Source: Negativicutes bacterium
GTDB taxonomy: Bacteria; Bacillota; Negativicutes; JAGPMH01
Reading direction: 5' to 3'
DNA: 53,772 nt
Assembly: GCA_018052945.1 (NCBI GenBank)
Contig: JAGPMH010000006.1
Coordinates: 1-53,772, forward strand
Both the position numbers and the translations under genes were made by a program. The notes below the pieces were generated by a model, which had not been told where the DNA came from, did no database searches, and saw only the letters and a program-made list of their open reading frames with translations. Of this stretch, positions 2,344 to 37,925 are shown piece by piece; the stretch's first letter is position 1; every line of letters begins with the position of its first letter.

Positions 2344-3763
2344 ATAATGTACTAATTACCATATTAATAAAGTTTGAAATTGGTTCAGGATAAATGCCTA
2401 GTACTACCGTTCCAATTAAACTTAACAATACTGTTACTCTTATCGCAAAAGTTAACTCTATTTTTTCACTACTAGCAGGTTTATCAATATACATGGTTTT
2501 AGCAACTTGCAGATAATAATAAACCGAAATCATCGACATAATAAAGCCAATAAACGCTAGTAACAAATGTCCTTTTTCTACAACAGCAGTGAACAAATAT
2601 AACTTACCAACAAACCCAGCCATCGGTGGAATCCCTGCCATCGACAAGAGTGATATTGTCAGTACAGCCGCTAGCAATGGTGCTCTTTGTCCTAAGCCCG
2701 CAATAGTGCTAAACTCAGCTTCACCATAGTTTTTATCGACAGCAATCAAGACACTAAATGCCCCAATATTAGCAATGATATAAATTAAAGTGTAAAACAA
2801 TACACCCTTAATTCCCGCAGCATCTGCTGCGATAATACCAATTAACATATATCCAGCTTGTGCTATTGACGAATAAGCTAGTAGCCGCTTTACATTAGTT
2901 TGCCGAAGCGCCATTAGGTTTCCGCCAATCATTGATAGTGTTGACAATAAAACCAACACCGGTAACCAATAGATTTTAACAATTGCAAAAGCCATAAATA
3001 AAACTCGAATTAACGCGGCCACTGCCGCAGTTTTTGATGCCGTTGCCAACAATGCCGTAATCGGTGTTGGTGCACCTTGATAAATATCCGGCGCCCACAT
3101 ATGAAACGGAATAATTGACATCTTAAAGAAAAAGCCAATTAACACCATTAAAATTCCCACTAAAGCAGCCGTAGAATATAACGCAAAATTTGCCGCCAGT
3201 TCCTGAAAAATAATACTACCGGTTGTTCCGTAAACCAAACTCACACCATATAACATGATCGCACTGGAGGTTGAACCAACAATCAGATATTTAACGCCAG
3301 CTTCACTAGAATTAGAGCTTTTTAAGGCATAGCCTACTAATACATAGAAAGATATTGCCATCAACTCTAAGCCCACAAATAATGTTAAAAAGTCATTTGC
3401 AGAAGCCATAACCATCATCCCAATTAATGCGGACAATATCAAAACATAAAATTCACCATGATGTTTCGGCAATTTTTCTACAAAATCAACTGAAAATAGC
3501 ACTGTAAAACCTACTGCTAACAAACACATTTGTTTAATTAACAACGCTAAATTATCCATAATAAATAAATTTTGAACAAATGTCGGTGCATTACCAAGGT
3601 GATACTGATTAAAGATCGCAATAAAAACGCCTACTAAGCCTATAACAGTAATATAACCTAAACATTTACGCGATTTTTCTTTAGGCATTAATAAATCAAT
3701 TCCTAAGATCACCATCGCTAAAATTGTCGTTGCTATTTCGGAACTAATTGCTAAAAAATTCAT
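2342..3763 (-). CDS. nuoN: Complex I subunit N (membrane, proton-channel)
   Basis: A 473-residue antiporter-like membrane subunit of NADH:quinone oxidoreductase-type complex I, with about 14 membrane helices. It carries the conserved glutamate helix (VGLELMAISFYVLVGY), the broken-helix lysine region (FHMWAPDIYQGAPTPITALL) and KRLLAYSSIAQAGYMLIG. It pumps protons when quinone is reduced by the peripheral arm. It is last in the operon and overlaps nuoM by four bases (ATGA), so the two are translationally coupled. Length is normal for the family. It could be mistaken for an Mrp or hydrogenase antiporter subunit, but the operon order settles it. Confidence 0.96.
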   Translation of the reverse strand: MNFLAISSEIATTILAMVILGIDLLMPKEKSRKCLGYITVIGLVGVFIAIFNQYHLGNAPTFVQNLFIMDNLALLIKQMCLLAVGFTVLFSVDFVEKLPKHHGEFYVLILSALIGMMVMASANDFLTLFVGLELMAISFYVLVGYALKSSNSSEAGVKYLIVGSTSSAIMLYGVSLVYGTTGSIIFQELAANFALYSTAALVGILMVLIGFFFKMSIIPFHMWAPDIYQGAPTPITALLATASKTAAVAALIRVLFMAFAIVKIYWLPVLVLLSTLSMIGGNLMALRQTNVKRLLAYSSIAQAGYMLIGIIAADAAGIKGVLFYTLIYIIANIGAFSVLIAVDKNYGEAEFSTIAGLGQRAPLLAAVLTISLLSMAGIPPMAGFVGKLYLFTAVVEKGHLLLAFIGFIMSMISVYYYLQVAKTMYIDKPASSEKIELTFAIRVTVLLSLIGTVVLGIYPEPISNFINMVISTL

Positions 3764-27030: not shown

Positions 27031-28590
27031 ATGAGTTGTAAAAATACTATCCTCATAGTTGACGATAACAATATTGATCGTGAGTTAGTAATTGGTCTCT
27101 TAGATGACAACAATATTAATATTATTAATGCTTGCGATGGATTAGAAGCTTTAACATATTTAAGAAATAATAATCCTGATTTAATTTTATTGGATATTGT
27201 TATGCCTAATTTAGGAGGCTTTGAGTTACTAGAAAAAATCCAAGCCTCACCCCTAACAGCTAGAATACCGGTCATATTGTTAACAAGTGTTGACGATATG
27301 GACTATATCAACAAGGGCTTAGAATTAGGGGCAGTTGACTATGTAATAAAACCCTTTAATGCAAAAGACATCAAGGCTAAAATTAAAAATCATTTTAATG
27401 TGAAAAATAGCTATGATACCAGTTTTGAGTTATTAAGATCCTTTGCTCAAGCCATTTCCGGAGCCTCTGCAATAATTAATGAAGAAGGAATTATTTTAGA
27501 AAAATTCGGTTCTTTTGAAACACAATGTCCTAATTTACCCCATAATATAAAGTTACCTACCGATACCAGTAACAGTAAATTTCTTAATCAAATTATTCTA
27601 GGGATTAAAAAAGCATTAAAATCAAATGCCAACTTTTCTTTTGAAAGTGAACTTACACAAAACGGCGTACGAAAAGTATTGCAAATTTCTATTTCAGACA
27701 TGAAGTATAGCTTTAATAATAAAAAGATCTTATCGCTACATATCTTGGATATCACAAACAAAGTCCTTGAAAATAGGCAAATTGATTTATTATATGAGTT
27801 TCAAAATCGCAATCGTTTATTTAACAACTTATTGTCAGAACAATATAGTGTTAAACAAAAAAATCAAATCCTCGAAACTTATGGTTTGGATTTAAACGCT
27901 CCGGTAGCTTGTTATATAATATCAGTGTTAGATGATAAGCATCATCTAACTGACATTATTAATAATGCATTAGGAGAATGGTTATTTATTAATGGCTATG
28001 CTTGGACTTGGCTTACAACCTGGGGTATCTCTACTTTAGTCCAACCGGTTAATCCGGCAAGTATAAATAAAAATGCCAAACTTCTAGCGGAAAAACTCTT
28101 GTTGAGGTTTCCTGAATATAAATTTAAAATATCCATATCGTTAGAAGAAGATAATTTTAATTTTAACCAAATTTATGCTGACGCTTTATCTAGCTTACTA
28201 TTTGCCCTTGATAATAATGATAATTATGTATTATTTAATTTTGAATTACATGCAATTTACCAAATAGTTTTAAATGCTTTTAATAATACTGATGTAGATC
28301 GATTTATTGATAAAATGCTCGGAAAAATAATTTTATCCGACAAACAGAATGATGGGCAATTATTAAAAACCCTATTTTATATTTTAAATAATGCCAGTAC
28401 AAAAATCATTTCACAAAAGTTATTTATTCATCAAAACACCGTTTTATGGCGTAAACAAAAAATAGAGGAAATTTTAGGTTACAACTTAGATGATATTCAT
28501 ATTAAAAATCAATTATTACTAGCTTATAAGTTCTATCGCTTAAAAAACTTATTGTCCAAAAATGTTCCTGCTGATTATGTCAATCTGTGA
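27031..28590 (+). CDS. Response regulator with PucR-type C-terminal helix-turn-helix
   Basis: A 519-residue protein, divergently transcribed from the chemosensory operon. Residues 1-120 are an intact receiver (DD in IVDDNN, Asp 55 in LLDIVMPNLGG, Lys in VIKPFN). Residues about 130-260 look PAS-like but weak; about 280-400 resemble the region before the PucR/CdaR DNA-binding domain. The C-terminal 60 residues contain the PucR helix-turn-helix (SQKLFIHQNTVLWRKQKIEE, then ILGYNLDDIHIKNQLLLAYK). Most PucR proteins sense small molecules; receiver fusion suggests phosphorylation control by the neighbouring kinases. Its targets are unknown; the adjacent operon is the first guess. Confidence 0.87.
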   Translation: MSCKNTILIVDDNNIDRELVIGLLDDNNINIINACDGLEALTYLRNNNPDLILLDIVMPNLGGFELLEKIQASPLTARIPVILLTSVDDMDYINKGLELGAVDYVIKPFNAKDIKAKIKNHFNVKNSYDTSFELLRSFAQAISGASAIINEEGIILEKFGSFETQCPNLPHNIKLPTDTSNSKFLNQIILGIKKALKSNANFSFESELTQNGVRKVLQISISDMKYSFNNKKILSLHILDITNKVLENRQIDLLYEFQNRNRLFNNLLSEQYSVKQKNQILETYGLDLNAPVACYIISVLDDKHHLTDIINNALGEWLFINGYAWTWLTTWGISTLVQPVNPASINKNAKLLAEKLLLRFPEYKFKISISLEEDNFNFNQIYADALSSLLFALDNNDNYVLFNFELHAIYQIVLNAFNNTDVDRFIDKMLGKIILSDKQNDGQLLKTLFYILNNASTKIISQKLFIHQNTVLWRKQKIEEILGYNLDDIHIKNQLLLAYKFYRLKNLLSKNVPADYVNL

Positions 28591-28594
28591 AAAC

Positions 28595-28640
28595 AAAAAA
28601 AGTCGCAATTAACAAAATGTTAATTGCGACTTTATCTTTA
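28595..28640. terminator. Bidirectional terminator
   Basis: AAAGTCGCAATTAACA pairs perfectly with TGTTAATTGCGACTTT (28618-28633) around a three-base loop, with A before and T after. It lies between convergent genes. Confidence 0.88.
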
Positions 28641-28649
28641 ATTGTAAAA

Positions 28650-29648
28650 TTATTTATTGGACTCTTCAATAGCAACTGCCACGGCAACGCTAGCGCCAAC
28701 CATTGGGTTATTACCCATACCGATTAGCCCCATCATTTCAACGTGTGCAGGAACTGAAGAAGAACCAGCAAATTGAGCATCAGAATGCATGCGACCCATA
28801 GTATCAGTCATACCATATGAAGCAGGACCGGCACCCATGTTATCAGGATGTAATGTTCTACCAGTACCACCACCTGAAGCAACGGAGAAATAACTTCTAC
28901 CATTTTCGTTACATTCTTTTTTATATGTACCAGCAACAGGATGTTGGAAACGAGTTGGGTTAGTTGAGTTACCAGTGATGGAAATATCAACTTTCTCAGA
29001 TCTCATGATTGCCACACCTTCTTGAACATCATCAGCGCCATAGCATCTAACTTTTGCTCTTTCACCATCAGAGTAAGCTGTTTCTTTAACGATTTTTAAT
29101 TCGTTTGTGTAATAATCGTAATCAGTTTGCACATAAGTGAAACCATTAATACGAGAAATTACAAGAGCAGCATCTTTACCAAGACCATTTAAAATTACAC
29201 GTAATGGATCTTTTCTAACTTTATTAGCAGATCTAGCAAGACCAATCGCACCTTCAGCAGCTGCAAAAGATTCATGACCTGCTAAGAATGCAAAGCATTT
29301 AGTATCTTCAGTAAGTAGCATTGATGCTAAATTACCATGTCCAATACCAACTTGTCTGCTATCAGCAACAGAACCAGGAATACAAAAAGCTTGTAACCCT
29401 TCACCAATTGCTTTTGCCGCATCAGAAGCTTTAGTGCAACCTTTTTTAATTGCAATTGCCGCTCCTAAAGTGTATGCCCAACAGGCATTTTCAAAGCAGA
29501 TTGGTTGTATTCCTTTTACAATACCTGCTACATCTATACCTTTATCATCACAGATTTTTTTAGCTTCCTCTAATGAAGAAATACCAAATGTTTTTAAAGA
29601 TTCTGTGATTTTATCTATACGTCGTTCGTAACCTTCAAACATCGCCAT
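28650..29648 (-). CDS. GGGtGRT protein, function unknown
   Basis: A 332-residue protein of the family named after its motif, here GGGTGRT at 259-265 in SVASGGGTGRTLHPDNM. No membrane segments or signal peptide. Eight cysteines (33, 51, 56, 71, 89, 118, 202, 246) are spread along the chain, a pattern compatible with metal or cluster binding. It lies 32 bases downstream of a NifU-like scaffold gene, the usual partner of this family, and both appear to be under a fluoride riboswitch. ATG follows GAGAGGGG. No biochemical role is known to me; the pairing points to Fe-S cluster use or maturation. Confidence 0.92.
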   Translation of the reverse strand: MAMFEGYERRIDKITESLKTFGISSLEEAKKICDDKGIDVAGIVKGIQPICFENACWAYTLGAAIAIKKGCTKASDAAKAIGEGLQAFCIPGSVADSRQVGIGHGNLASMLLTEDTKCFAFLAGHESFAAAEGAIGLARSANKVRKDPLRVILNGLGKDAALVISRINGFTYVQTDYDYYTNELKIVKETAYSDGERAKVRCYGADDVQEGVAIMRSEKVDISITGNSTNPTRFQHPVAGTYKKECNENGRSYFSVASGGGTGRTLHPDNMGAGPASYGMTDTMGRMHSDAQFAGSSSVPAHVEMMGLIGMGNNPMVGASVAVAVAIEESNK

Positions 29649-29679
29649 ACTATAAATCCCCTCTCTATATTAAATAATT

Positions 29680-30375
29680 CTATTCTTTACGTGGATCGAT
29701 GTACTTAGCAGCATTATCAAATCTACCATATTGCCCAGTAGCTTTTTGTAGTGCTTCGTTAGCATCCATACCTTTTTGTTGAATCATTTCCATCATTTTA
29801 CCAAGATGAACAAATTTGTAACCAGTGATTTCATTATTTTCATCAAGTGCTAATGTAGTAATGTAACCTTCTGCTAATTCAAGGTAACGAGGACCTTTTG
29901 CTAAAGTACCAAAAGTTGTACCAACTTGGCTACGTAAACCTTTTCCTAAGTCTTCAAGACCAGCACCGATTGGTAAACCACCTTCGGAGAAAGCAGTTTG
30001 AGTTCTACCATAAGCAATTTGTAAGAACAATTCGCGCATTGCTGTGTTAATAGCATCACAAACTAAATCTGTGTTTAATGCTTCTAAAATTGTTTTACCT
30101 GTAAGGATTTCTGCTGCCATTGCTGCAGAATGAGTCATACCGGAACAACCAACTGTTTCAATTAAAGCTTCTTGGATAACGCCATCTTTAACATTTAAAG
30201 TTAATTTACAAGCGCCTTGTTGAGGTGCACACCAGCCAATACCGTGTGTTAAACCATTAATGTCTTTTACCTCTTTTGTTTTTGTCCATTTGCCTTCTTG
30301 TGGGATTGGCGCAGAACCATGATTAGTAGCTCTTGCCACGCAAGTCATTTCTTTTACTTCATGCGAGTAAATCAT
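29680..30375 (-). CDS. NifU/IscU-like iron-sulfur cluster scaffold protein
   Basis: About 231 residues. The NifU_N-type fold is suggested by the cysteines at 49 and 56 (GWCAPQQGACKLTL) and 77 (ETVGCSGMTHSAAMAAEILT), with GKTILEAL following. It lacks the NifU ferredoxin and C-terminal Nfu domains. IscU-type proteins assemble Fe-S clusters and hand them to targets; here the likely target is the GGGtGRT protein encoded next. The start ATG at 30373-30375 follows GAGAGGAG; the longer in-frame reading runs through the riboswitch and is rejected. A cysteine desulfurase is not encoded nearby. Confidence 0.88.
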   Translation of the reverse strand: MIYSHEVKEMTCVARATNHGSAPIPQEGKWTKTKEVKDINGLTHGIGWCAPQQGACKLTLNVKDGVIQEALIETVGCSGMTHSAAMAAEILTGKTILEALNTDLVCDAINTAMRELFLQIAYGRTQTAFSEGGLPIGAGLEDLGKGLRSQVGTTFGTLAKGPRYLELAEGYITTLALDENNEITGYKFVHLGKMMEMIQQKGMDANEALQKATGQYGRFDNAAKYIDPRKE

Positions 30376-30390
30376 ATTAGCTCTCCTCTC

Positions 30391-30464
30391 AAAAATAAAT
30401 AAACTCCTACATAATCGCAGGAGTTGTAACCATGTAAACAGGTTTCCTAGCGAACTCCATCGCT
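30391..30464 (-). ncRNA. Fluoride riboswitch (crcB RNA motif)
   Basis: On the minus strand the leader contains AGCGATGGAGTTCGCT (30449-30464), the conserved GCGATGG-G-TTCGC stem-loop of fluoride aptamers. It is followed by a second small stem (ACC-TGT...ACA-GGT, about 30429-30446) and CTCC (30420-30423), which can pair with GGAG of the first loop to form the pseudoknot. The same CTCC is in the 5' arm of a terminator hairpin (AACTCCT/AGGAGTT, 30402-30425, then TTTATTTATTTTT). Fluoride binding would favour the pseudoknot, block the terminator and switch on the NifU-like/GGGtGRT operon. The layout closely matches the known Bacillus cereus crcB riboswitch. The downstream genes are not a recognised fluoride exporter. 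Confidence 0.9.
30402..30425 (-). terminator. Expression-platform terminator of the fluoride riboswitch
   Basis: AACTCCT pairs with AGGAGTT, extended by one further C-G pair across a bulge, followed on the minus strand by TTTATTTATTTTT. Its 5' arm overlaps the pseudoknot segment CTCC, making ligand binding and termination mutually exclusive. Confidence 0.85.
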
Positions 30465-30482
30465 TTTTTAACCACAATATAT

Positions 30483-30510
30483 ATTATATCATTTACTTTA
30501 ACCTTGTAAA
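30483..30510 (-). promoter_or_regulatory. Promoter of the riboswitch-controlled operon
   Basis: TTTACA (30505-30510) and TATAAT (30483-30488) are 16 bases apart on the minus strand. The -10 ends 19 bases before the aptamer, leaving a short leader. Confidence 0.7.
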
Positions 30511-30522
30511 TAGCTCAATAAC

Positions 30523-31482
30523 TTAATTTACAATATTAATTGGAGTTTGTTCAAGATATTTTTCCAAATTTAACACTGCAATATCCATTAGTCGCTGTCG
30601 AGCCTCTTTAGGAGCCCAAGCAATATGAGGGGTAATAATACAATTAGGTGCTTTTAATAAAGGGTTATTGCTTGAAATTGGCTCAGCACTAACAACATCT
30701 AATGCTGCCCCCAATACTTTTCTTGTAGTTAAACCTTCTGCCAAAGCTTTTTCATCAATCAACCCACCTCGTGCAGTATTAATAATCATAACCCCATCTT
30801 TCATTTCTTTTATTCTATCTTTATTTATTAATTTTTCATTTTGTGTTGTTAACGGACAATGTAGTGAAATAATATCAGATATTTTAATAAGTTCAGTTGT
30901 AGTGACAAACTTTACATTTTCATTTAAATATTGTTCTTGGGGATAAGCTGTGCTAATTACTACTTTCAAACCAAAAGCTTGCGCTATTTTCAAAACAGCT
31001 TTACCAATTTTACCAAAACCAATAATCCCTAAAATTTTATCTTTCAATTCAGTTTGTGGCGTTAAACAATATGAAAAATCGCTATTATTACTCCATTTTC
31101 CTTGTTTAACACTATCACTATGTAGTCCGATGCGATGACACAGCTCCAAAATTAGTCCAAACGTAAACTGTGCCACCGCCGTAGTGCCGTAATCAGGAAT
31201 ATTAGTAACTACTATTTTATTCTTCTTAGCAGCAACTATATCCACTACATTATAACCGGTAGCCAGTACTCCAATAAATTTCAAATTAGGACAAGCTGTA
31301 ATTATTTCCTCATTGATAACTGTTTTATTAGTATAAATTATTTCAGCATCAGCTATTCTTTCTATAACTTCACCCGGCTTCGTTCGGTCATACACTATCA
31401 ATTCACCTAAACTGGCTAAGTTCGACCAACTCAAGTCGCCAGGATTTAGCACATAGCCATCCAATACTACTATTTTCATCAT
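30523..31482 (-). CDS. D-2-hydroxyacid dehydrogenase (glycerate dehydrogenase-like)
   Basis: A 319-residue NAD-dependent dehydrogenase with catalytic Arg in NTARGGLIDEKAL, Glu in DVVSAEP, His in ITPHIAWAP, and the Rossmann motif GIIGFGKIGKAVLKIA at about 148-163. It interconverts a 2-keto acid and a D-2-hydroxy acid. HIAWAP and the overall layout resemble hydroxypyruvate/glycerate dehydrogenases (HprA type), but D-lactate-type substrates cannot be excluded. ATG is the first of two; TTTGTATT-AGGAG precedes it. The gene stands alone between the riboswitch promoter and a terminator. Confidence 0.9.
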   Translation of the reverse strand: MMKIVVLDGYVLNPGDLSWSNLASLGELIVYDRTKPGEVIERIADAEIIYTNKTVINEEIITACPNLKFIGVLATGYNVVDIVAAKKNKIVVTNIPDYGTTAVAQFTFGLILELCHRIGLHSDSVKQGKWSNNSDFSYCLTPQTELKDKILGIIGFGKIGKAVLKIAQAFGLKVVISTAYPQEQYLNENVKFVTTTELIKISDIISLHCPLTTQNEKLINKDRIKEMKDGVMIINTARGGLIDEKALAEGLTTRKVLGAALDVVSAEPISSNNPLLKAPNCIITPHIAWAPKEARQRLMDIAVLNLEKYLEQTPINIVN

Positions 31483-31529
31483 TTTCTCCTTTTGTATTAT
31501 AAAAATTTATAGCAAGACGAGCCTTAGAA

Positions 31530-31577
31530 AAAATTAATAAAATAGCAGAACAACTGAAGTTTCAGCTATTCTGCTAT
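31530..31577 (-). terminator. Terminator downstream of the binding-protein gene
   Basis: ATAGCAGAA (31542-31550) pairs with TTCTGCTAT (31569-31577), with an inner CTGAA/TTCAG helix. On the minus strand TTTTATTAATTTTTT follows. Confidence 0.8.
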
Positions 31578-31590
31578 CATTATAACTCAT

Positions 31591-32760
31591 TTATTGTTGA
31601 GGGTTAATTTTTTCTTTAAATATCTGTTGACCATTTTTTATTTCTACTACTACTGCACTTTTTATTGGGTTATGATTATTATCAATACTTAGTAAACCGG
31701 TTGTAATCTGTAGTTTTTTTGTTTCTTCTAGCGCCTGACGGATTTTTTCCGGGTCATCACTACCGGCTCTTTTAATTGCATCAATCACAACTAATGCACA
31801 ATCATAGCCTAAAACCGCCAGTGCACTAGGTTCTTGATTATATTCAGCTTTATAAGCTTTAACAAATTCTACAACTTTCGGATCTTGATCCTGTGGAGAG
31901 TAGTGATTACTAAAAAATGTTCCTTCAACTGCACTCAATCCGGCAATTTCTATTAATTTAGGATCATCCCATCCATCAGTCCCGATCAATTGTGATTTTA
32001 TGCCGATTTCACGGGCTTGCCTGATTATTTTGCCGACTTCTTCATAGTAAGCCGGAATAAAGACAACATCAGGATTTATTGCTTTAATTTTTGTTAACGT
32101 TGATTTAAAATCTTGGTCTTTTTGTAAAAAAGATTCTTCACCAATAATAATGCCACCATTAGCAATGAACTTTTCGGCAAATATTTTGGCTAACCCTTTG
32201 GAATAATCTGAGCTACTGTCGATATACATAACAGCCGTTTTCGCTTGTAACGATTTCGCAGCAAAATTAGCCATAACTTCCCCCTGAAACGGATCAATAA
32301 AACAAGTACGAAAAACATATGGTCGAACTTGATCCTGTTCCATCGTAACACTAGGATTAGTAGCAGTAGCAGTTATTAATGGTATTTTAGAGTCATGGGC
32401 AATTTGCACTGTTGCTAAAACATTTGAACTTGCTACTGAACCAAATACTAATTTTACATTATCATTTTTAATTAATTTTGTTATAGCATTTGCTGATTCA
32501 GAAGGCTCCGATTTATTGTCAGCAATAATCAATTTAATTTGTTTTCCTAAAACTCCACCCTGTTCATTAGTTTGTTTAATAGCTAAATTAATACCATTAA
32601 CGGTTTGTTTCGCAACTGCCGCTAACGCTCCGGTCATTTCATAATTTGCTCCCAAAATAATTTCCTTATCATTTTTAATTAGGTTATTACAACCGCTAGT
32701 AATAAGACCTAATACTAAAACTAAGACCAATGATAAAACCACCATAATATTCTTGCGCAT
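31591..32760 (-). CDS. Branched-chain amino acid-type ABC transporter substrate-binding lipoprotein
   Basis: About 389 residues of the Leu/Ile/Val-binding (LivJ, periplasmic-binding type I) family. A lipoprotein signal peptide ends in the lipobox LITSGC, so it is anchored to the membrane by Lgt (encoded at 38034). Domain marks: ILGANYEMTGALAAVAKQTV at the start, VFGSVASSNVLATVQIAHD, and YDCALVVIDAIKRAG. No permease or ATPase genes are adjacent, so it is an orphan component or has distant partners. Three consecutive ATG codons compete; the third (32758-32760) is seven bases from AGGCGG and is chosen. Confidence 0.9.
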   Translation of the reverse strand: MRKNIMVVLSLVLVLVLGLITSGCNNLIKNDKEIILGANYEMTGALAAVAKQTVNGINLAIKQTNEQGGVLGKQIKLIIADNKSEPSESANAITKLIKNDNVKLVFGSVASSNVLATVQIAHDSKIPLITATATNPSVTMEQDQVRPYVFRTCFIDPFQGEVMANFAAKSLQAKTAVMYIDSSSDYSKGLAKIFAEKFIANGGIIIGEESFLQKDQDFKSTLTKIKAINPDVVFIPAYYEEVGKIIRQAREIGIKSQLIGTDGWDDPKLIEIAGLSAVEGTFFSNHYSPQDQDPKVVEFVKAYKAEYNQEPSALAVLGYDCALVVIDAIKRAGSDDPEKIRQALEETKKLQITTGLLSIDNNHNPIKSAVVVEIKNGQQIFKEKINPQQ

Positions 32761-35163: not shown

Positions 35164-37644
35164 TTACTTTACTACAACATTAACTAATTTATTGGGAACG
35201 CAAATTACTTTCACAATATTCTTATCTGCTACAGCATCTTTTACTTTTTGTTGTTCCAAAGCCTTTTCTTCGAGTTCTTTTGCATTTAAGCCAGCCGGTA
35301 CAACTATTTTATCGCGAACCTTGCCATTAATTTGTAAAACAACTTCAACTTCATCTAACACAACAGCTTTTTCATCAAACTTTGGCCAAACTTGTTTATG
35401 AACACTGCCACAACCAATAACCTCACTCCATAATTCTTCAGTAATATGCGGAGCAAACGGTGCCAACAATTTTAATAATGAACTAACTACTTCCCTCGCC
35501 AAATCATTGTTTATATTTTCTTGTTTATCATTAACAGTATAGATGGCATTTACTAGCTCCATAATCGCGCTAATTGCAGTATTAAAATTAAATCTTAAGC
35601 CAATATCATCAGTAACCTTTTTAATGGTGGCATGGAGTACTCTGCGTAAATCTTTTTCAGGTTTCGTTAAAACTGCCACATCATAATTTTCTGTCCCTTG
35701 CGAAACTTTTTGCGCTAATTGGTAAACAATTCTCCATACCCGACCTAAGAAACGATAAGCACCTTCAACCCCTTGGTCACTCCACTCCAAATCACGTTCC
35801 GGCGGAGCGGCAAACAAAATAAATAAACGAGCTGTATCGGCACCATATTTACTGATAATCTCTTCCGGTGATACAACATTACCTTTAGATTTTGACATTT
35901 TTGAACCGTCTTTAATAACCATCCCTTGTGTTAACAAGTTTTTAAAAGGTTCACTAAAGTTAACTAATCCAGCATCTTTTAAAACTTTTGTAAAAAAGCG
36001 GGAATATAATAAATGTAAAATAGCATGCTCAATCCCACCAATATATTGATCTACCGGCATCCAATAATTAGCTCGGTCACTGTCAAATGGTAGATTAGTA
36101 TTTTTAGGGTCAGTATAACGCAAATAATACCATGATGAACAAATAAACGTATCCATTGTATCAGTTTCCCGTCGGGCAGCAGCACCACATTTCGGACAAG
36201 AACAATTAACAAAATCTTCAACTTGGGCTAACGGTGATACCGCTCCTGCTGTAAAATCAACATTTCCCGGCAACATTACCGGCAATTGTTCTTTTGGTAC
36301 AGGAACTACTCCACAATGCTCACAATATATCATTGGAATTGGTGCTCCCCAATAACGTTGACGCGAAACCAACCAATCTCTCAAGCGATAATTAACTCGT
36401 TTTATACCAATGTTTTCTTCTTCTAACCATGCAGTGATTGCTTTTTTAGCTTTTTCATTTTCCATATTTGAAAAATGAGCTGAATTAATTAAAATGCCTT
36501 CATCAGTATAAGCTTTAGTCATAGTGCTAATATCAAAAGATTTTTCTTTATCGGTTATAACTAATTTTTTCGGCAAATTATATTTTGTTGCAAATTGCCA
36601 ATCTCGATCATCATGAGCTGGAACTCCCATTACTGCACCAGTTCCATATTCAAATAATACATAGTTAGCAATCCAAATCGGTACTCTTTCGCCATTAAAC
36701 GGATTAATAGCATAGGCACCGGTAAAAACACCTTCTTTTTCTACTTCCGTCGAAGTACGTTCAAGCTCAGTTTGATTACGAACTTTTGTAATAAAATCTT
36801 CAATTTCATTTTTGTTTTCTTGCTCGGCAATAAGTTTCGCTACCAGCGGATGTTCTGCCGCTAACACAACATAACTTACACCAAAAACTGTATCCGGTCT
36901 AGTTGTATAAACAGGAATTTTCTCTGTCGAACCATCTAGACAAAAATTAAACTCAGCCCCTTCACTACGGCCAATCCAATTTTCTTGCATTGTTTTAACG
37001 CGATCCGGCCAACCATTTAATAATTTTAAATCATCCAATAAAATATCAGCATAATCTGTAATCTTAAAAAACCATTGTTCTAATTCTTTTTTTATCACAA
37101 CGGTGTCACAACGCCAACAATTACCGTCAATAACTTGTTCATTAGCCAATACAGTATTGCATTGTTCGCACCAATTTACAGCTGCTTTTTTCTTATAAGC
37201 TAAACCACGCTCATAAAACAATAAAAATAGCCATTGAGTCCAGCGGTAGTATTCAGGAGTGCAAGTTGCAACCTCTCTATCCCAATCATAAGAAAGACCA
37301 ATTTCAGTTTGTTGCTTTCTCATATTCTCAATATTCTTCATCGTCCATTCAGCCGGTTGAACACCATGTTTAATCGCCGCATTTTCTGCCGGCATCCCAA
37401 AGGCATCCCAGCCCATTGGATGCAGTACGTTATAACCATCCATGGCTTTATATCGTGCTAACACATCGCCAATAGAATAGTTACGGACATGACCCATGTG
37501 TAAATTTCCCGACGGATATGGAAACATTTCTAATACATAGTATTCCGGTTTTTGACGATCCAATTCAGTTTTAAAGGCTTTGTTATCAAGCCATTTTTGT
37601 TGCCATTTTCCTTCAATTTCTTGTGGCATATATTTTTCATCCAT
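35164..37644 (-). CDS. leuS: Leucyl-tRNA synthetase
   Basis: About 826 residues, class I synthetase charging tRNA-Leu. The HIGH motif appears as [13 protein letters not shown], and KMSKS as [13 protein letters not shown]. An editing (CP1) domain lies at about 220-400 and contains [15 protein letters not shown]. Cysteine pairs CEQC...CWRC and CEHC...CPKC form zinc-type knuckles. The ATG at 37642-37644 is eight bases after AAGGAGG; another ATG two codons upstream is only two bases from it. Expression is controlled by the leucine T-box just upstream. Confidence 0.97.
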
Positions 37645-37680
37645 TATCATAACCTCCTTGAGTTTTACTTCCACTATAAA

Positions 37681-37890
37681 ATAAAAAAATCCCTTGGCTT
37701 ATGCCAGGGACGAATTAATTCGCGGTACCACCCTGATTGATGAAAATAATCATCCTCTCATTAGTTATAACGTAACCACCGGCAAACTAATTGCTCTTCA
37801 ACAGCAAGTTCAGCTTTATTTTTTATTAGCTCGCATCAACCGCTAACTTTCTGCAAAAAAATAATTGCTTACTACTCTGCATCACCAGAT
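37681..37890 (-). ncRNA. Leucine T-box leader
   Basis: The minus-strand leader has the T-box element AGGGTGGTACCGCG (37721-37734), whose UGG contacts the uncharged tRNA acceptor end. A terminator follows (CCCTGGC-ATAA-GCCAAGGG then seven T, 37684-37710). Stem I carries GCAGAGTAGTAAG near its base and AGTTAGCGG/TGATGCGAGCTAA distally. The specifier follows GAA as CUU (37806-37808), a leucine codon that agrees with leuS downstream. Uncharged tRNA-Leu would stabilise the antiterminator and allow leuS transcription. Confidence 0.95.
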
Positions 37891-37925
37891 TTAAAAACAA
37901 TATATAATAATAATTACTAAATTTT

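Follow-up and report, generated by a model that had tools for sequence, protein, structure and literature searches.

The stretch of DNA analyzed here (the window; 53,772 nucleotides from a Negativicutes bacterium) carries, on its minus strand, a two-gene operon encoding a NifU-like protein and a GGGtGRT protein, preceded by a leader that was originally predicted to be a fluoride riboswitch controlling Fe–S-type genes instead of a fluoride exporter. The locus thus raises the questions of whether this leader is related to fluoride riboswitches, whether it still senses fluoride, and what such a leader says about the two genes behind it. The best explanation, which we consider likely, is that the leader is a fluoride-riboswitch homologue inherited at this locus and that the gene pair belongs to the fluoride regulon of related operons, with sensing by the window copy itself being perhaps weakened or lost.

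The crcB-type core, the second stem, and the CTCC proposed to form a pseudoknot or a terminator arm could all be located on the minus strand upstream of the operon. A promoter-like site at 30483–30510 (TTTACA-16-TATAAT, with a TG before the −10 hexamer) has 11 of 12 consensus matches and is the top-scoring site in the region 28400–31700; its end (30483) is 19 bases ahead of P1, as had been claimed. The aptamer (30419–30464), supported by Rfam family RF01734, by a model described below (R1), and by its pairing, starts with AGCGAUGGAGUUCGCU, followed by a small P3 hairpin and then A-C-A-A-CUCC-U. P1 comprises four pairs, all standard (AGCG/CGCU; 30464–30461 with 30452–30449), P3 spans 30444–30428 (AACC-UG/CA-GGUU), and in the pseudoknot GGAG(U) at 30458–30454 faces (A)CUCC at 30424–30420, with five out of five pairs being standard. 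In the numbering of published aptamers, the last stretch reads A40, C41, A42, A43, C44–C47, and U48, which puts the core bases at 30427 (A40), 30426 (C41), 30425 (A42), and 30419 (U48). Both linchpin bases, A40 and U48, are present.

The leader also has an expression platform in competition with the aptamer fold. The intrinsic terminator (30392–30425) consists of a 9-bp stem (30425–30402) and the tail UAUUUAUUUU, with an energy of −12.7 kcal/mol and a z score of −5.5 relative to shuffled sequences. Because CUCC lies within the 5′ arm of this stem and is used by both structures, the pseudoknot and the terminator are mutually exclusive. RNA made from the promoter near 30483 would either fold into P1, P3, and the pseudoknot, so that CUCC is held and the terminator is blocked, or let CUCC join the terminator stem, so that transcription stops before the NifU-like and GGGtGRT genes; by keeping CUCC from the terminator, a ligand-bound aptamer would act through transcription attenuation. 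The ribosome-binding site (GAGAGGAG, 30383–30390) is located 7 bases 5′ of the ATG at 30375, and its position is the same in loci L015 and L020 and in further leaders. Terminators were found in the leaders of relatives as well, and in L020 the terminator covaries with the pseudoknot.

The known system that most resembles this arrangement is the transcriptional fluoride riboswitch of Bacillus cereus crcB (RF01734), with which the window leader shares P1, P3, the pseudoknot, A40/U48, a site in the 5′ UTR, and a terminator that overlaps the 3′ strand of the pseudoknot. It differs from that riboswitch in having C41 and A42 in its core, in preceding the NifU-like/GGGtGRT genes rather than an exporter gene, in residing in a genome without CrcB, and in scoring below the gathering score of the family. 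The leader obtained 23.4 bits with RF01734, under the gathering score of 34 (E = 1.6e-4 for a 301-base stretch and all 4227 families). Taken by itself, this score speaks against the original prediction and in favor of a chance likeness around an ordinary terminator. The score is, however, overridden by the following results. Across the 1.64-Mb genome, the window leader was the sole credible match to RF01734, the runner-up scoring 11.7 bits. Model R1 was trained on fluoride aptamers from the window's class, 18 in all and none of them a GGGtGRT leader, and thus rests on independent training data; it gave the window leader 44.6 bits (E = 3.5e-9 in 599 kb). R1 is biased to the window's class and missed the aptamer of L090, though Rfam scores this aptamer at 40.6 bits, and the named loci were therefore scanned again with RF01734. 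Leaders of orthologous NifU-like/GGGtGRT operons scored above the RF01734 cut-off (L014, 51.0 bits; L013, 43.8 bits; L009, 36.2 bits; L076, 57.6 bits), meaning that canonical aptamers occur at the orthologous position. The 16 linked aptamers have no nonstandard P1 or pseudoknot pairs and show compensatory changes at several pairs, including the pseudoknots UGGG/CUCA in L020, GGUAU/AUACC in L090, and GGAGC/GCUCC in L175. Based on the R1 score, the over-threshold orthologous aptamers, and the compensatory changes, the descent of the window leader from the known fluoride riboswitch is firmly supported. The R1 E-value, the genome-unique match, and a linkage above chance (see below) rule out a chance resemblance, to which we attach hardly any probability.

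Whether the window copy still responds to fluoride is a separate matter. Its core departs from the consensus twice, which the original prediction did not mention: U41 is replaced by C (30426) and G42 by A (30425). U41 is invariant in all other aptamers examined, and a search for the C41 form in 301 genomes of the class found it in the window genome (G000) alone, whereas A42 also occurs elsewhere, in aptamers with an otherwise intact appearance. A U41A mutant of the B. cereus aptamer shows no fluoride response (PMC11077080; U41C was outside that study), and the changed position 41 in the window may thus have broken fluoride sensing.

The genomic setting bears on the same matter. CrcB and CLC were sought in the window genome, which is 99.8% complete, and none was found above cut-off. 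The nearest relative, L015, has a GGGtGRT protein 92% identical to that of the window, and its leader (3205–3350, minus strand) has no aptamer, although the dehydrogenase on its upstream side, the −10 region, and the ribosome-binding site are all retained as in the window. In a weak alignment, the L015 leader reads ACAAC where other leaders have AUGAC, a hint that the core change is older than the split between the window and L015. The genome of L015 contains two CrcB genes, one of which comes immediately after its own canonical riboswitch.

The U41C and G42A changes, a genome devoid of CrcB, and a closest relative that has lost its aptamer together suggest that fluoride sensing in the window copy may have been weakened or lost. 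In its strongest form, this would make the leader a relic in a lineage that no longer senses fluoride, with the hairpins acting as a fixed, partly leaky terminator. The pseudoknot and the terminator are still fully complementary; neutral decay would soon erode both, and long neutral decay is therefore disfavored, which leaves the relic as a credible reading that falls somewhat short of even chances. A working riboswitch that tolerates C41 and A42, and that serves the sole fluoride-controlled operon of the genome, is about equally likely; a switch that still works might do so with a shifted affinity or ligand. P1, P3, the five pseudoknot pairs, A40/U48, and the terminator, most of which the nearest relative has lost, are all intact here, and A42 is evidently compatible with otherwise intact-looking aptamers; against this stand the restriction of C41 to the window among the aptamers compared and the behavior of the B. 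cereus U41A mutant. On sequence grounds, the window leader is a fluoride-riboswitch-derived attenuator with a putative ligand response.

We then consider how general the combination of riboswitch and gene pair is. In the class sample of 301 genomes, GGGtGRT was found in 94 and an over-threshold fluoride aptamer in 61. Such an aptamer lies 5′ of GGGtGRT in the same gene run in eight genomes (G009, G027, G012, G037, G061, G131, G107, and G040), compared with approximately 0.02 linkages expected (shared ancestry not corrected for). Adding the window and G051, whose leader scored 40.6 bits with R1, brings the number of linked genomes to ten, from seven families of the class. In another, incomplete genome (G143, L046), the leader runs into a NifU-like start, and no GGGtGRT was seen. 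The association is not confined to the window's class, a possibility ruled out by its presence in Alistipes and in Bacillota of other classes. Among 399 sampled Bacillota, GGGtGRT occurs in 16 genomes beyond the window's class, four of which (G482, G387, G423, and G630) have an aptamer in the same gene cluster, and Alistipes sp. dk3624 (L090) has an aptamer, CrcB, and then the NifU-like gene. On a tree of GGGtGRT proteins, the riboswitch label needs eight changes, at least five of which are forced by well-supported branches, and the riboswitch has therefore been gained or lost several times.

The originally proposed check of homologous operons finds the same type of leader in the over-threshold orthologues named previously but not in the majority: of the 94 genomes with GGGtGRT in the class sample, 84 lack the riboswitch, as do 78 of 80 named loci. 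The GGGtGRT operons of the large family f12, whose loci are similar to a Schwartzia locus, in keeping with membership of the Negativicutes, are among those that lack it. Fluoride control is therefore not what the pair serves everywhere.

Two of the aptamers are unusual in themselves. The one in L020/L169 (G051), located before the NifU-like and GGGtGRT genes, is divergent (GGUAAAUGGGUUUGCC); it combines the UGGG/CUCA pseudoknot with the covarying terminator, and the loop bases ahead of its pseudoknot are off consensus too. In the Alistipes aptamer (L090:2861–2930), 5′ of CrcB and the NifU-like gene, the pseudoknot is altered on both sides.

In many of the riboswitch-linked operons, the gene pair is accompanied by known fluoride genes. 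One of these operons reads riboswitch, NifU-like, GGGtGRT, DUF190, and CrcB (L172). In L175 and L177, the pair is followed by two CrcB genes and DUF190, and L176 has the same order with a permease-like gene first. L161 starts with DUF190 and CrcB, after which come the riboswitch and the pair, whereas L160 consists of a riboswitch, Usp, DUF190, CrcB, one unassigned gene, and then the pair. In L162, the riboswitch and the pair are followed by a second riboswitch, a Na+/H+ antiporter, Usp, and DUF190, and in L178 two MutS-like genes separate the riboswitch from the pair. CrcB, DUF190, Usp, and antiporter identities were assigned by Pfam where proteins of L160, L161, L162, and L172 were tested and by tblastn similarity to these otherwise; the MutS-like and permease names come from reading the sequence, without a Pfam test. 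The pair is clustered with CrcB and/or DUF190 in L160, L161, L172, L063, L076, L175, L176, L177, and L090. CrcB also adjoins the pair with no riboswitch detected in L078 (Geobacter UBA6802), L153 (Draconibacterium), L077, and L179; in the latter (G644:C1), NifU-like, GGGtGRT, and CrcB are consecutive, and a fluoride aptamer was not found nearby. Separately, fluoride islands were observed in L159 (G027:C8:119000–138500) and in L157/L158 (G009), with up to eight fluoride aptamers in approximately 15 kb, several of them arranged as tandem pairs within 250 bases. These islands carry antiporter, Usp, DUF190, CrcB, and MutS-like genes.

CrcB, antiporters, and MutS are known genes of fluoride riboswitches (PMC11139923, PMC2864571). 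Since the pair shares riboswitch operons with such genes, it is a member of the fluoride regulon of those bacteria, placed inside CrcB/Fluc–DUF190 operons behind the same riboswitch class; the window operon differs in holding the pair alone. The phrase "instead of an exporter" in the original prediction is therefore apt for the window genome, where neither CrcB nor CLC was detected, but not for many riboswitch-linked relatives, which have pair and exporter together. The gene association is broader than had been supposed.

The proteins themselves are only partly familiar. The NifU/IscU-like protein (231 residues; 29680–30375, minus strand) matches PF01592 with 23.5 bits (cut-off 22), a profile search of the PDB retrieves IscU/NifU chains for it (E = 4.5e-5), and its AlphaFold2 model, although weak, finds IscU folds (E = 3.4e-5). 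It fails every housekeeping equivalog cut-off in NCBIfam, scoring 27.5, 22.7, and 20.6 bits for NifU, IscU, and SufU, for which the cut-offs are 187.9, 192.4, and 92.5, respectively. Judging from these profile and model matches, the protein is IscU-related: it shares the fold and central motif of the IscU/NifU/SufU scaffolds, and its alignment has four invariant cysteines (C49, C56, C77, and C106). Unlike these scaffolds, it has an extra C-terminal region, and the window-type gene adjoins GGGtGRT in the loci examined. The GGGtGRT protein (332 residues; 28650–29648, minus strand) is a full-length member of its family (PF14057, 651.9 bits), with no difference seen, and carries invariant Cys and His residues. 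A PDB sequence search returned no relative among solved structures, and Foldseek gave no match at E ≤ 0.001 for the AlphaFold2 model, which is of intermediate confidence (pLDDT 79.8); weak fold matches to CODH, UDP-GlcNAc epimerase, and Usp were set aside. The operon is closed by a terminator-like hairpin at 28599–28633, readable on both strands and common to a convergent gene (27031–28590, plus strand) whose product has a receiver domain of the response-regulator type and, at its C terminus, a PucR-type helix-turn-helix. Elsewhere in the window, a T-box leader (37703–37894, minus strand; RF00230, 123 bits) is located immediately 5′ of a leucyl-tRNA synthetase-like ORF (35164–37674).

Previous studies tie the pair to iron. 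The GGGtGRT/NifU operon of Bacteroides thetaiotaomicron drops strongly in iron deficiency (PMC10434189), and GGGtGRT protein levels in Clostridium pasteurianum shift with iron supply (PMC5395762). These responses in two unrelated anaerobes, as well as the fact that the majority of GGGtGRT operons have neither a riboswitch nor a CrcB neighbor, would suit a pair that is merely a passenger in fluoride operons, that is, an iron-regulated housekeeping function located near crcB by chance or through general-stress coexpression. This is unlikely in our view, as the linkage is far above chance and recurs in separate lineages, in which both the gene order and the partners (CrcB, DUF190, a Na+/H+ antiporter, or MutS-like genes) vary. 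The simplest view is that of an iron-dependent protein pair that in some lineages has also come under fluoride control, and a connection of the GGGtGRT/NifU-like pair with fluoride stress is probable. Of the fluoride control originally predicted for this Fe–S-type pair, the relatedness of the leader, its place before the pair, and the ties of the pair to fluoride genes stand, whereas the C41 core calls control at this very locus into question. In what would be the likeliest role, GGGtGRT would be made when fluoride challenges the cell, and, more tentatively, the dedicated IscU-like scaffold would give it a metal or Fe–S center. Our leading guess is that the pair could replace or protect a fluoride-sensitive metal step; the repair of fluoride-damaged metal centers, given as an example in the original prediction, is a hypothesis. 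A bolder reading, which we regard as improbable, is that the pair forms an unrecognized multiphylum module for fluoride tolerance or repair and that the window switch, through C41/A42, has evolved an altered affinity or a different ligand and has been retained because a signal sensed in the transcript still controls the pair.

The riboswitch class is already known, and its link with GGGtGRT/NifU-like genes is absent from the literature searched: no paper was found in which fluoride riboswitches are connected with GGGtGRT or with NifU, the gene table of the 2012 discovery paper (Baker et al.) lying outside the search, so that priority for this link is not established. The window aptamer is a natural variant at a position that experimenters use for an inactive control, and the C41 form is useful for studying how an RNA of this class can lose its function or shift to another. 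GGGtGRT and its IscU-like partner occur in several phyla, mostly in anaerobes, and the fluoride operons, to which the pair is tied in Bacillota, Bacteroidota, and Thermodesulfobacteriota, offer a directly testable role for it. The fluoride response would then extend from export and compensation of Mg2+ enzymes toward iron or Fe–S chemistry.
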